A DNA stretch of 64,000 nucleotides, from positions 62,001-126,000 of the forward strand of contig DXHR01000018.1 in NCBI GenBank assembly GCA_019113295.1. Direction: 5' to 3'. This document shows positions 33,510 to 55,525 of this stretch, piece after piece. Below the pieces are notes generated by a model. The model did no database searches, had not been told where the DNA came from, and worked only from the letters and a program-made list of their open reading frames with translations. Every line of letters begins with the position of its first letter. The stretch's first letter is position 1. The DNA comes from Candidatus Salinicoccus stercoripullorum. Lineage in GTDB: Bacteria > Bacillota > Bacilli > Staphylococcales > Salinicoccaceae. The translations under genes were made by a program, and so were the position numbers.

Positions 33510-33935
33510 GTTGGACGGCGGCCGCTAAAGTGATCTGCCGGCCTCCGTTTCCGTTACCGGGGCCATCAATGCCGGTTGCCGGCCTCCGTTTCCGTTACCG
33601 GGCACCAATGCCGGTTGCCGGCCTCTGTGGACTGGACGGCGGCCGCTAAACTGATCTGCCGGCCTCCGTTTCCGCTACCGGGGCCACCAATGCCGGTTGC
33701 CGGCCTCGGTGGACTGGACGGCGGCCGCTAAACTGATCTGCCGGCCTCCGTTTCCGTTACCGGGGCCTCAACCCCGGTTGCCGGCCTCTGTGGACTGGAC
33801 GGCGGCCGCTAAAGTGATCTGCCGGCCTCCGTTTGCGTTACCGGGGCCATCAATGCCGGTTGCCGGCCCCCGTGGACTGGACGGCGGCCACTAAACTGAT
33901 CTGCCGGCCTCCGTTTCCGTTACCGGGGCCGCCGA
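33510..33935. repeat. Array 3 of 41/82-bp GC-rich hairpin repeats (about five dimers, reverse orientation)
   Basis: CGGCGGCCG recurs at 33516, 33637, 33719, 33800 and 33882; the last three steps are 82, 81 and 82 bases. Each 82-base dimer has a half like CGGCGGCCGCTAAA..GATCTGCCGGCCTCCGTTTCCGTTA and a half like CCGGGGCC..CAATGCCGGTTGCCGGCCTC..GGACTGGA. The first interval is 121 bases because it holds an extra half. ACGGCGGCCGCTAAAG and GCCGGCCTCCGTTT equal the reverse complement of array 1, so the orientation is flipped. The array lies between convergent cdr and the amylase-like gene, flanked by both terminators. The whole 33346-34001 gap holds nothing else. Confidence 0.92.
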
Positions 33936-33967
33936 CGCAATTACAACACCTCTCCCATCAAAAAAAA

Positions 33968-33985
33968 GAGGCCTTGGCGGCCTCT
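33968..33985 (-). terminator. Terminator of the amylase-like gene
   Basis: GAGGCC / GGCCTC arms with a TTGGC loop; on the minus strand it is followed by a run of T (plus-strand 33961-33967). Confidence 0.85.
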
Positions 33986-34001: not shown

Positions 34002-35420
34002 TTACATGTCTTCTTTTGGCTTCCGGCGTTTGGCCACTATCCAGATGAATATTCCGAATCCGCCGAAGATGATGAGTCCGGCGTAGACGTAGCCGTTATT
34101 GAGACCGGTCTCTTCAGTGATGGCATAGAGTTCTGTCTCTTCCCGGTCGAGGACGGCGTTGTAGCTGTCCTGTCCGTCTTCCGATCTGAGCTTGTCTCCG
34201 ATGAGCAGGCCGCTCATCATCTTGCCCCGGTCCCCTGCTTCAAGCGGGACGTTGAAGTTTTCGGTCCTTGCTGTGTCGTTGATGTTCAGTATGAAATCGA
34301 CGTCAGTGGTGTCGTATCTGACGACGTAGTGGCCGTCCTCGCCTGTTTTAAGTTCCGTCATATCACCGTCAAGCAGCTGTTTGTTCTGGGTGAATACGGT
34401 GTTGATCTCCTTGATGTAGTCGACGTCTTCCTGGTCTGTCCAGAGGTCCATCTGCCTGTGTACCGCAGGGATGCTGTCGCCGTTCAATGCGACTTCTGTA
34501 CCGTATTGGAAGCTGACGGGGCCCGGGTATCCGTACAGATACGCGGTGAGCTGCTGGATGCGGGTACTCGGGAACATGTTTTCCCCGGCTGCATGCATGG
34601 TGAAGCGTTCGGTGAACCAGTGGTCTGCGAGCAGTATCTGTCCATCTTCCGGATAGGATGGTATCGCCTTATCCGTCGTACTGAAGGCTTCCGCAACTTC
34701 CTGTCTCATGGATTCTGAAGCGACATGGTCGAACCCTTCCGCCTCGACCGATTCGCTGCCGAGAATGCCGTATGTCGTCACGCCCTGCGGCATGAATTCC
34801 CGGGCGTCCACGCCGTCCTGCACCACGTTCATGCTGAGGCCGTCGATGCCGAATTCATCAACGAAGGATTGCGCCATCTCCCTGTATGCATCCTGATTCT
34901 CCGGCAAGCTGAAATCGATGAAATCCACATCGGCAATGTCAGAATAGTATTCCTGCTGGAGTTTATTGAGCTCAGGATCCTGAAGGGCCTCATATCCCTC
35001 CACTGCACTTGCCGGCATATCGACGACAATTTTCATGTCCATCTCATGCGCCGCGTCGACGAGCGACTGGAACTCTTCCGCCCCGCCGAATGATTCTTCG
35101 ATTTCTCCGTAGTTTTCCACGTCATAGCCCAGGTAGTCCTCATCCGACTTGTCGAAAACCGGTGACAGCATGAGTGTGTCGAATCCCATGTCATGTATGT
35201 ATTCCAAATTTTCCTGTATGCCGCGGAAGTCCCCCCCGAATGGAAGCGGCTCCTCCTCGTCATCCGTCACATTGACATCATTCGCTTCATCCGCATTGAG
35301 GAAACGGTCGACGACAACTGTATAGATGCGGTCGTGCGGTTTTTCCCGGGCTGATGCTTCCTGCTGGAATATACCGCCCACAACCAGCATCACCATTATG
35401 TATTTCAATAATTTCTGCAT
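34002..35420 (-). CDS. Membrane-anchored alpha-amylase-fold protein, probably catalytically dead
   Basis: A 472-residue protein with a signal peptide (about 1-24, ending EASA), a GH13-like domain and one C-terminal membrane helix (about 444-462) followed by KRRKPKED. The fold is shown by RIYTVVVDRF, FGGDFRGIQENLEYIHDMGFDTLMLSPVF, GYDVENYGEIEESFGGAEEF and AYLYGYPGPVSFQYGTE. The catalytic positions are lost: region I keeps D134 but lacks the following Asn-His; region II GIDGLSMNVV has Ser196 for Arg and Asn198 for the nucleophile Asp; region III has Asp266 for Glu; region IV lacks NHD. It may bind glycans at the cell surface. Function is unknown. Confidence 0.85.
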   Translation of the reverse strand: MQKLLKYIMVMLVVGGIFQQEASAREKPHDRIYTVVVDRFLNADEANDVNVTDDEEEPLPFGGDFRGIQENLEYIHDMGFDTLMLSPVFDKSDEDYLGYDVENYGEIEESFGGAEEFQSLVDAAHEMDMKIVVDMPASAVEGYEALQDPELNKLQQEYYSDIADVDFIDFSLPENQDAYREMAQSFVDEFGIDGLSMNVVQDGVDAREFMPQGVTTYGILGSESVEAEGFDHVASESMRQEVAEAFSTTDKAIPSYPEDGQILLADHWFTERFTMHAAGENMFPSTRIQQLTAYLYGYPGPVSFQYGTEVALNGDSIPAVHRQMDLWTDQEDVDYIKEINTVFTQNKQLLDGDMTELKTGEDGHYVVRYDTTDVDFILNINDTARTENFNVPLEAGDRGKMMSGLLIGDKLRSEDGQDSYNAVLDREETELYAITEETGLNNGYVYAGLIIFGGFGIFIWIVAKRRKPKEDM

Positions 35421-35515
35421 TGTAATCCTACCTTCTCATCTAATATCCCAAGTATACTAGATTAAAAATAAAAATATCATCTTTTCAAAAAATGTTCACA
35501 AAATCCCATAAGAAA

Positions 35516-35541
35516 AGACACTCCCCCGAAAAAGAGTGTCT
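35516..35541 (-). terminator. Terminator of yisL
   Basis: AGACACTC / GAGTGTCT arms with a 10-base loop; on the minus strand TTTTCTT follows. Confidence 0.85.
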
Positions 35542-52700: not shown

Positions 52701-53945
52701 CTATGCCCAGTGGCGGTATCTGATTGCCTCGGCTGTGCGTTTGATGCCGACCACATATGCCGCAAGGCGCATGTCCACACGACGGGTGTCATGGATTCTG
52801 TATACTTCGTCGAACGACTCCTTCATCTTCCTGACAAGGAGCTCATGGATTTCCTCATCGTTCCAGTAGTAGCCCTGCTTATTCTGCACCCATTCGAAGT
52901 ACGAGACGGTCACCCCGCCGGCGGATGCCAGCACATCCGGCACGATCAGCTTGCCGTTTTCGGTCAGGATCGCAGTCGCCTCCTGCGTCGTCGGCCCGTT
53001 CGCCGCCTCGCAGATGATATCCGCCCTGATGCGTGCTGCATTTTCCTCAGTGATCTGGTTGGCGATCGCCGCCGGAATCAGGATATCACACTCCAATTCG
53101 AGCAGTTCTGCATTAGTGACCACTTGAAGGTCCAGTTCCTTCGCAACATCCACTTTGTCTTTATTCTCGATGACGTAGTCGATATCGATGCCATCCGGAT
53201 GATAGAGCGCACGCGTGGATCTCGACACGCCCACGATCTTCGCCCCTTTGTCGTAGAGGATCTTGGAGATGAAGCTTCCTGCGTTACCAAAGCCCTGGAC
53301 TGCGACACGGGCGTCCGCGATATTGATGCCGCGCTTCTCAAGTGCCTGTTCGACACAGATTACCGCACCCATCGCGGTTGCGGTGTTGCGCCCCTGGGAC
53401 CCGCCGAGCACGATCGGTTTGCCGGTGATGAATTCGAATGCGTTATCTGAATGCTTCACACTGTATTCATCCATCATCCAGGACATCACCTGGGCATTCG
53501 TATAGACATCAGGCGCCGGAATGTCCTTTGCCGGACCTACAATCTGGGAAATCGCCCTGACATAGCCCCTTGAAATGGCCTCCAGTTCCTTGTCGCTCAG
53601 CTCTTTCGGGTTACAGATGACGCCGCCTTTGCCCCCTCCATACGGGAGACCGACGATGCCGGCCTTCAGCGTCATCCACATGGACAGTGCAATCACTTCC
53701 TCCTCCGTTACGTCAGGATGGAAACGGATTCCCCCTTTTGTCGGCCCTGCAGCGTCACTGTGCTGGGCGCGGAAGCCTGTAAAAACCTTCACAGAACCGT
53801 CATCCATATGTATCGGTATGCGCACTTTGAGCAGTCTTTCAGGTTCTTTGATGAGGTCATACATGCCTTCATCAAAGCCGAGCATATCAAGCGCCTCATG
53901 AATTACAGATTGTGTTGATGAAATAAGATTCGAAGTCTTCCCCAT
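52701..53945 (-). CDS. Glutamate dehydrogenase, paralogue 1
   Basis: A 414-residue catabolic-type (GudB/RocG-like) enzyme that converts glutamate to 2-oxoglutarate and ammonia with NAD. The catalytic lysine is in LPYGGGKGGVIC; the AAGPTKGGIRFHPDV and GFGNAGSFISKIL motifs are present. The start MGKTSNLISSTQSVIHEALD has a GGTGG ribosome site. It lies directly downstream of a very similar gene. The two differ over much of the NAD domain (residues about 190-290), so they are not a recent copy. Compare GudB and RocG of B. subtilis. Confidence 0.93.
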   Translation of the reverse strand: MGKTSNLISSTQSVIHEALDMLGFDEGMYDLIKEPERLLKVRIPIHMDDGSVKVFTGFRAQHSDAAGPTKGGIRFHPDVTEEEVIALSMWMTLKAGIVGLPYGGGKGGVICNPKELSDKELEAISRGYVRAISQIVGPAKDIPAPDVYTNAQVMSWMMDEYSVKHSDNAFEFITGKPIVLGGSQGRNTATAMGAVICVEQALEKRGINIADARVAVQGFGNAGSFISKILYDKGAKIVGVSRSTRALYHPDGIDIDYVIENKDKVDVAKELDLQVVTNAELLELECDILIPAAIANQITEENAARIRADIICEAANGPTTQEATAILTENGKLIVPDVLASAGGVTVSYFEWVQNKQGYYWNDEEIHELLVRKMKESFDEVYRIHDTRRVDMRLAAYVVGIKRTAEAIRYRHWA

Positions 53946-54280
53946 AATTTCTACCACCCGTTATAAGATTTCCGCGGACACGGCATTATAAAGTGAATCT
54001 GTTTTACAAGGTACCTCCTTATAGAGAATAGGAAGCAGCTTCAGCCTGTCCAGGTTATATTATGTTAAAATTTTCGCAATTTAGATATTCATAATAATAC
54101 AAAAGTTCGCATAATGCAAGAAAAAATACAGCAGGGGATTATAATCGAAACCAGCATATGTCATAGACGCATTTCAACTCTCTGACAGCCGCATCGTTCA
54201 AAAGGGGGACGGACGTCGGGCTCCCAAAAACATGAAAAACCCGGAAATCCATCGGATTTCCGGGTCGGCAGTTCTTATTT
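53946..54280 (-). other. Intergenic region between the two gdh genes
   Basis: No gene of its own. It holds the terminator of the upstream gdh (54240-54264) and an AT-rich stretch before gdh 1 that should carry its promoter; I could not choose one with confidence. The separate terminator and gap suggest that the two gdh genes are controlled apart. Confidence 0.55.
54240..54264 (-). terminator. Terminator of the second gdh gene
   Basis: Perfect 11-base arms CCCGGAAATCC / GGATTTCCGGG with a 3-base loop; the minus strand continues TTTTTC. Confidence 0.9.
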
Positions 54281-55525
54281 TTATGCCCATCCTCTGTATC
54301 TGGCTGCTTCTGCTGTACGCTTGATGCCGATGATGTATGCTGCAAGGCGCATATCAATCTGGCGTTTGTCATGGAGGTCATAGATCTCATCGAAGGCTTT
54401 TCTGAGTTTGAGCTGAAGTTTCTCATTGACTTCGTCCTCATCCCAGTAATAGCCCTGGTTGTTCTGCACCCACTCGAAGTAGGACACTGTCACACCGCCT
54501 GCGGATGCAAGCACATCGGGAACGATGAGCTTGCCGTTGTCGGTGAGGATTTTTGTCGCTTCTTTCGTAGTAGGACCGTTTGCCGCCTCACAGATGATAT
54601 CCGCTTTGATATCATCCGCGTTCTCTTCTGTGATCTGGTTGGCAATTGCTGCCGGGATCAGGATATCACAGTCGATTTCAAACAGTTCATGGTTGCTCAG
54701 GACGTCATCGAACAGATTTGTCACCATGCCAAAGCTGTCACGGCGGTCCAGCAGGTAGTCTATGTCGAGTCCGTCCGGATCATGCAGCGCACCGTTCGCA
54801 TCTGAAATCCCTACGATTTTGGCACCTTTGTCCGAAAGGATCTTGGACAGGAAACTTCCTGCATTTCCAAATCCCTGTATTACGATGCGGACATCTTCCA
54901 TCTTCATATTACGCTTTTCCATCGCCTGTTCGAGACACAGGACAACCCCCATCGCTGTTGCACGGTCGCGTCCCTGAGAGCCGCCCAGCACAAGTGGTTT
55001 ACCTGTAATGAATCCCGGAGAGTTGAATTCGTCGATCATGCTGTACTCATCCATCATCCACGCCATTATCTGTGAATTCGTGAACACATCCGGCGCCGGT
55101 ATATCCTTGGCCGGCCCGACAATCTGGGAGATTGCACGGACGTAACCGCGGCTCAGACGTTCAACCTCCTCTATGCTCATCTCACGCGGGTCACAAACAA
55201 TCCCGCCTTTACCTCCGCCGTAAGGGAGATCGACGATTCCCGCTTTCAAAGTCATCCACATGGAAAGTGCAACAACTTCCTCCTCATTTACATCAGGATG
55301 GAAACGCACACCGCCTTTAGTCGGCCCGACCGCATCATTATGCTGCGCCCGGTATCCCGTGAACACTTTTACAGAACCGTCATCCATACGTACAGGGATA
55401 CGTACGGTCAACAGACGCATCGGTTCCTTGATGAGTTCATACATGCCCTCATCGAAGCCGAGTTTGTCCAGGGCCTCATGAATGATCGTCTGTGTAGAAG
55501 TGATAAGATTTGATTTCTCTGACAT
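54281..55525 (-). CDS. Glutamate dehydrogenase, paralogue 2
   Basis: A 414-residue enzyme of the same class as its neighbour, sharing VGPTKGGVRFHPDV, LPYGGGKGGIVC and IQGFGNAGSFLSKIL, and of equal length. The start is MSEKSNLITSTQTIIHEALDKLG. It has its own promoter and a cre-like site, so it may be the copy repressed by glucose (RocG-like). It lies 70 bases after rocD, which supplies its substrate pathway. Which paralogue is GudB-like cannot be told from sequence alone. Confidence 0.94.
   Translation of the reverse strand: MSEKSNLITSTQTIIHEALDKLGFDEGMYELIKEPMRLLTVRIPVRMDDGSVKVFTGYRAQHNDAVGPTKGGVRFHPDVNEEEVVALSMWMTLKAGIVDLPYGGGKGGIVCDPREMSIEEVERLSRGYVRAISQIVGPAKDIPAPDVFTNSQIMAWMMDEYSMIDEFNSPGFITGKPLVLGGSQGRDRATAMGVVLCLEQAMEKRNMKMEDVRIVIQGFGNAGSFLSKILSDKGAKIVGISDANGALHDPDGLDIDYLLDRRDSFGMVTNLFDDVLSNHELFEIDCDILIPAAIANQITEENADDIKADIICEAANGPTTKEATKILTDNGKLIVPDVLASAGGVTVSYFEWVQNNQGYYWDEDEVNEKLQLKLRKAFDEIYDLHDKRQIDMRLAAYIIGIKRTAEAARYRGWA

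Follow-up and report, generated by a model that had tools for sequence, protein, structure and literature searches.

We found that the protein encoded at positions 34,002-35,420 of the window (the whole 64,000-nucleotide stretch of Candidatus Salinicoccus stercoripullorum DNA that was analyzed) belongs to a real, conserved pseudoenzyme family and is an unusual variant. In the salt-loving Salinicoccus and its relatives, it has the build of a starch enzyme, has lost the catalytic residues, and has long been retained at one address; its present role is therefore probably one of binding or support on the cell surface rather than starch cleavage. Judged from its residues, the protein very probably no longer hydrolyzes alpha-glucans, and there is about an even chance that the old cavity serves in a binding role. 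The reading as a whole, a functional pseudoenzyme with a remodeled pocket, is one that we hold to be somewhat probable.

Gene structure and local signals

The decayed GH13_45-type protein is encoded by one open reading frame of 472 aa on the minus strand, from a start at 35,420 to a stop codon at 34,002-34,004; all gene features and signals given below for this protein are likewise on the minus strand. The initial annotation had given the same frame without a strand and had described it as intact with its own terminator, which we placed at 33,967-33,985. The terminator of the upstream gene, YisL, located at 35,516-35,541 on the minus strand, splits YisL and the decayed-amylase gene into two transcription units. 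A candidate promoter of its own (ATGATA-18-TATACT; 35,451-35,480) has a CTAGTATACT box that is kept upstream of orthologs, and a conserved upstream element, TTTGTGAAC (35,494-35,502), is a possible activator site. The promoter scan by itself was at chance level, and the evidence for the promoter is the conserved footprint at 35,451-35,502, in which TTTRTGAAC precedes a CTAGTATACT-like box by ~42 bp in nearly all of 16 orthologs; from its sequence, this arrangement looks like an activator site plus a -10 box. At zero mismatches, the upstream element had a single site genome-wide, this gene's own, and therefore no regulon was drawn. A search for a catabolite-response (cre) site upstream returned no convincing matches in either the intact or the decayed class.

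Between Cdr and the decayed-amylase gene we noted an 82-bp GC-rich tandem repeat in 4.4 copies (33,577-33,930). Because 21 related matches were present in the same genome, mostly on contig C12, this is a dispersed repeat family, one that we take to be reminiscent of staphylococcal STAR repeats. Elsewhere in the window, two adjacent glutamate-dehydrogenase-like genes (52,701-53,957 and 54,281-55,525) were on the same strand and clearly related to each other.

Domain layout, predicted fold, and membrane anchor

From the N- to the C-terminus, the protein comprised a signal peptide, a GH13 barrel from which domain B is almost entirely missing, domain C, and a transmembrane helix. Pfam identified Alpha-amylase (E 2.2e-25, best stretch residues 36-135) and Alpha-amylase_C_2 (residues 352-432), in agreement with the GH13 framework first proposed, and the best solved relatives were GH13_45 alpha-amylases of Anoxybacillus and Geobacillus. 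An AlphaFold model built from an alignment of 69 diverse relatives, which replaced an earlier model from a narrow alignment (pLDDT 73.8), had a mean pLDDT of 93.7 and a pTM of 0.87. Superposition on an active GH13 enzyme, the check that the initial annotation had suggested, gave a Z of 42.9 to 5a2a (rmsd 2.2 Å over 399 residues), so that an amylase-like fold is predicted, with the (beta/alpha)8 barrel and domain C that characterize GH13.

The signal peptide (residues 1-24; 35,349-35,420), with cleavage expected after ASA, was recognized from the sequence, and orthologs have the same layout. Domain C covered residues 352-436 (34,113-34,367), based on the Pfam match and the model. The C-terminal transmembrane helix that had been proposed earlier, along with the signal peptide, was recovered both as a hydropathy maximum (residues 445-463) and as a helix in the model (residues 442-465; 34,026-34,097); it is followed by a basic tail, KRRKPKEDM. 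Together, the signal peptide, hydrophobic helix, and basic tail should place the amylase domain outside the cell. The same region contains a motif like that of BmaN1 (GLNNGYVYAGLIIFGGFGIFIWIVAKRR here versus GFNIGYIAAVAAVYTGFGIFLYKASSKRR in BmaN1), for which a transmembrane helix has been predicted (PMC11448133). The C-terminal region of GH13_45 has also been discussed in the literature as a starch-binding aromatic motif; here it is most simply read as a membrane helix. A search with the BmaN1 C-terminal peptide as probe found no close relative in the genome sample. Within and before the helix, F455, F458, and N441 were invariant or nearly so across all groups. The idea that the helix is unusually conserved was dropped, as it was no more conserved than other segments.

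Active-site residues and register

To fix the register, we aligned the protein by way of intermediate relatives, of which 24 have an intact Asp-Glu-Asp triad. In place of that triad the protein has N198 (nucleophile), I219 (acid/base), and F269 (stabilizer). Region I (D134-M-P136-A-S138-A139; 35,004-35,021) has kept its Asp, has lost Asn-His, now S138-A139, and has gained a Pro that is invariant in the clade. Region II (G194-L-S196-M-N198-V-V-Q201-D202; 34,815-34,841) has lost both the Arg, at S196, and the nucleophile Asp, and S196, M197, and Q201 were invariant or nearly so in the Staphylococcales clade. In region III, on strand beta5 (residues 215-223; 34,752-34,778), the acid/base Glu is replaced by I219, a column holding I, V, or F throughout that clade. 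Region IV (residues 264-274, L-A-D266-H267-W268-F269-T-E-R272-F-T; 34,599-34,631) carries W268-F269 where His-Asp would stand. These results agree with the initial annotation as to N198, S196, and the losses in regions I and IV. Its assignment of the acid/base to D266 failed, since D266 falls on the Asp that opens region IV (DNHD), a position held by Asp in all 114 relatives, active or inactive. All three catalytic acids were thus changed, as had been claimed, but to Asn, Ile, and Phe. Shifting the alignment by two residues would put G221 at the acid/base position, again without an acid.

Substrate contacts were lost to a similar extent. Specifically, R211, W101, H217, H309, and R362 of ASKA correspond to S, D, D, W, and H here, the last being H321 (residues 318-324; 34,449-34,469) in place of the maltose-binding Arg, while Y100 is kept as Y99; of the ten maltose contacts in ASKA crystal structures (PMC4791539), Y99 alone is left. 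The second calcium (Ca2) site was retained (residues 38-64; 35,229-35,309), with N42, N47, D48, and D64 aligned to N44, N49, D50, and D65 of ASKA (PMC4791539). In the Staphylococcales clade, N47 was present in 34/40 and D48 in 31/40 sequences (the others having mainly Thr/Ser and Asn, respectively), and D64 in 40/40. The second calcium site is thus mostly kept, whereas the first one is lost, along with most of domain B. Two further hallmarks of GH13_45 were missing: the Trp pair of helix alpha3 is replaced by S185-F186 (F186 in 40/40 Staphylococcales sequences), and the LPDlx motif in CSR-V by V165-D166-F167. Given the absence of triad, Trp pair, and LPDlx, the protein should not be annotated as an alpha-amylase.

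Orthologs, chromosomal address, and selection

Of the 32 genomes searched in the same family, 31 had a full-length ortholog without internal stops, and the remaining one was a fragmented assembly; chance is thereby excluded. Carriers by name were Salinicoccus, Jeotgalicoccus, Lacicoccus, Phocicoccus, and Nosocomiicoccus, with Macrococcus more distant. Within Salinicoccus, dN/dS was 0.07-0.18, a sign of purifying selection, and in these genera the gene occupies a single chromosomal address. There, AddB-AddA-DUF418-YisK-YisL and the decayed-amylase gene face Cdr-DegV-HAD-PaaD-UppP-ClpB (neighbor names assigned by homology). The same address was occupied in a second family (f6), but with other substitutions in the protein. 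Four Staphylococcus-like genomes (the genus name being inferred) lacked the gene, with 82-165 bp from YisL to Cdr. In one of the genomes examined (G059, locus L212), YisL was inverted relative to its neighbors when compared with other Staphylococcus-like genomes, and another genome (G338) had two decayed copies (L113 and L137), one of them off the usual address.

Phylogeny and exit from the maltodextrin operon

In a tree rooted with other GH13 enzymes, copies with an intact triad were basal, and 56 of 59 decayed representatives formed one clade (SH-aLRT 99), although the tree was of a quick kind, with some long rows, and BmaN1 group ii sequences were not among its rows. The decayed clade was nested after active copies and so derives from active GH13_45 enzymes. 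One member inside it (L088) still had D-E-D and had lost other active-site residues; outside it, L063 and the pair L067/L152 represented separate, recent losses. Repeated independent loss, which a midpoint-rooted tree had suggested, was rejected, as outgroup rooting produced one main loss clade plus a few recent losses.

MalEFG transport genes, checked by Pfam, adjoined 23 of 24 intact copies versus 2 of 74 decayed copies. By counts, the association of operon and triad had a Fisher p of 5e-19, but the tree contains no more than three or four changes behind it, so that as independent events it is not significant. One genome (G169) carried an intact copy and MalEFG operon beside Cdr-DegV-HAD-PaaD-UppP-ClpB, that is, beside the same neighbors as the Salinicoccus gene. 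The simplest history is that the operon around the amylase was lost first, catalysis decayed later, and the protein was retained.

Four copies (L063, L067, L070, and L152) showed recent loss of one or two triad residues; L067 and L070 were still inside a maltodextrin operon, L063 and L152 were near the remains of one, and all four are possible starting points of decay. Additionally, copies labeled Paenibacillus, Pseudomonas, and Sporosarcina globispora (L056, L059, and L065) were of the Cytobacillus type, and these labels may be wrong.

A proposed remodeled pocket in the Staphylococcales clade

In the Staphylococcales clade, conservation at the positions corresponding to the maltose contacts of ASKA exceeded the average (a level reached by 0.9% of random draws), in a test that rests on nine positions. 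New residues were fixed at S196, Q201, and F269 (40/40 each) and nearly so at H321 (39/40), and the old Y99 was present in 40/40. These positions drift in the decayed copies of Bacillaceae (99.98% of draws were higher) and were neutral in f6. The contrast between conservation in Staphylococcales and drift in Bacillaceae is our main reason to propose a rebuilt pocket that is in use. Across groups, the Arg to His change at R362 of ASKA was observed in 39/40 Staphylococcales, 27/27 f6, 11/24 decayed Bacillaceae, and 0/23 intact copies, and the column of P136 had a pattern similar to that of H321.

Under this proposal, a GH13_45 alpha-amylase gave rise to the extracellular part of what would be a type I membrane protein. 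The predicted fold and second calcium site have been kept, and the catalytic acids and nearly all maltose contacts lost. In the Staphylococcales branch, the active-site cavity would have been rebuilt from Y99, D134, S196, Q201, D266, F269, and H321 and may now accommodate some other small ligand, or a partner, on the outer face of the membrane, with the helix and basic tail holding the protein to the cell.

Relation to known GH13 proteins

GH13_45 (GTA 4E2O, ASKA 5A2A, and BaqA) provided the best structural and sequence match, sharing with this protein the second calcium site, a C-terminal transmembrane region, and a GxNxxY...FxxF motif. The protein differs from GH13_45 in lacking the catalytic acids, region II Arg, region I and IV His, Trp pair, LPDlx, first calcium site, and MalEFG operon, and in the near deletion of domain B. 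Decayed triads in GH13_45 were already known from reports in 2017 and 2025. Sarian et al. (PMC5347038) reported aberrant triads among GH13 amylases; in one small group, all three residues were substituted "without an obvious regularity". In 2025, the majority of GH13_45 entries were found to be without complete conserved regions, with 140 of 1091 fitting the subfamily criteria (PMC12695923). BmaN1 of Bacillus megaterium and the aberrant-triad groups (PMC5347038) are GH13_45-related with an altered triad, as here. The features of BmaN1 group i (Lys-Asp nucleophile, Glu acid/base, and His stabilizer) were absent, the corresponding residues being N198-V199, I219, and F269. Substitution of all three triad positions, the feature of group ii, was shared; however, group ii is irregular, whereas the substitutions of the Staphylococcales clade are regular (S196, I219, and F269). 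In the open-access literature searched, no description came up of this clade or its fixed location, of the link between operon and triad, or of regular replacement residues, nor anything useful on GH13 pseudoenzymes as a topic; the clade structure, operon loss, and pocket remodeling are the new part.

Alternative explanations

Outside this subfamily, rBAT and 4F2hc (SLC3) have a membrane-anchored dead GH13 domain as partner subunit of amino-acid transporters (PMC8537225), and 4F2hc also is without domain B (PMC9110406). By analogy, the protein might be an accessory or scaffold subunit whose dead amylase domain stabilizes or places a membrane partner, such as a transporter or envelope synthase, the cavity serving in core packing. 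We regard this as a credible minority possibility. It is consistent with a single membrane helix on an extracellular GH13 domain devoid of catalytic residues, the near absence of domain B (PMC8537225, PMC9110406), and the constancy of F455, F458, and N441. The likeness is in working principle only, as rBAT and 4F2hc have an N-terminal membrane helix, belong to another GH13 branch, and have a known transporter partner, so that shared ancestry of the loss is not implied. Moreover, the neighborhood at the locus names no such partner, and no gene was consistently linked beyond YisL and YisK, which also occur without the gene in Staphylococcus-like genomes. Nor does the helix, with its ordinary conservation, argue for a partner: active relatives carry the same one, which is thus inherited and no evidence of a new partner. 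Core packing of the barrel could by itself explain conservation of the pocket, and the nucleophile position varies freely (N/T/F/M/Y), both of which count against a rebuilt pocket, as does a gene neighborhood that names no ligand.

BmaN1 also bears on the loss of hydrolysis, as it was reported to hydrolyze starch with Lys and His at two triad positions (PMC5347038, PMC11448133) and so weighs against a pseudoenzyme. An unusual mechanism through other acids is nevertheless unlikely here: BmaN1 retains Glu231 together with an Asp next to the nucleophile position, neither of which is left in this protein, which has also lost the region II Arg and both His. By homology, loops or strands bordering the cleft carry two invariant acids, D134 and D266, and one that is specific to the clade, D95, but D134, D193, D266, and E309 are identical in active enzymes and hence are not new catalysts. 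A lectin-like receptor for maltodextrin or starch in the old cleft appears still more improbable, despite GH13 descent and the stacking Y99 of subsite -1 (40/40), as the protein has lost nine of ten maltose contacts as well as the Trp pair, LPDlx, and domain B, and its gene is detached from the MalEFG operon. Clean absence from the four Staphylococcus-like genomes indicates that the gene is dispensable in some lineages and would suit a functionless relic awaiting deletion; with dN/dS about 0.1, no stops in the orthologs examined, and many invariant columns, we give this explanation very little credence. Thus, of the role initially suggested, a pseudoenzyme kept outside the cell is well supported by family-wide retention, selection, signal peptide and anchor, and loss of three acids. 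Glycan binding, as far as the old substrate is concerned, is not supported, given the missing contacts, motifs, most of domain B, and operon; the rebuilt pocket may hold another ligand, or a protein partner may be involved.

Implications

Automatic annotation by family models would label these proteins alpha-amylases. We suggest tentatively, and with more doubt than confidence, that in the Staphylococcales branch a secreted amylase became a surface receptor or accessory subunit that is anchored in the membrane and whose new pocket is conserved, an ancient, vertically inherited bacterial counterpart in kind of rBAT/4F2hc, and that most GH13_45 records outside the operon belong to the same non-hydrolytic class. 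If the pseudoenzyme reading is right, a large share of one CAZy subfamily would be a non-hydrolytic surface protein with a role of its own, recognizable by the lack of MalEFG next door. The natural series at one address, which runs from an active enzyme to a protein that is dead yet under constraint, lets pocket rebuilding be tested for another task, and Salinicoccus, Jeotgalicoccus, and Macrococcus emerge as carriers of an unstudied surface protein that is absent from Staphylococcus-like genomes.
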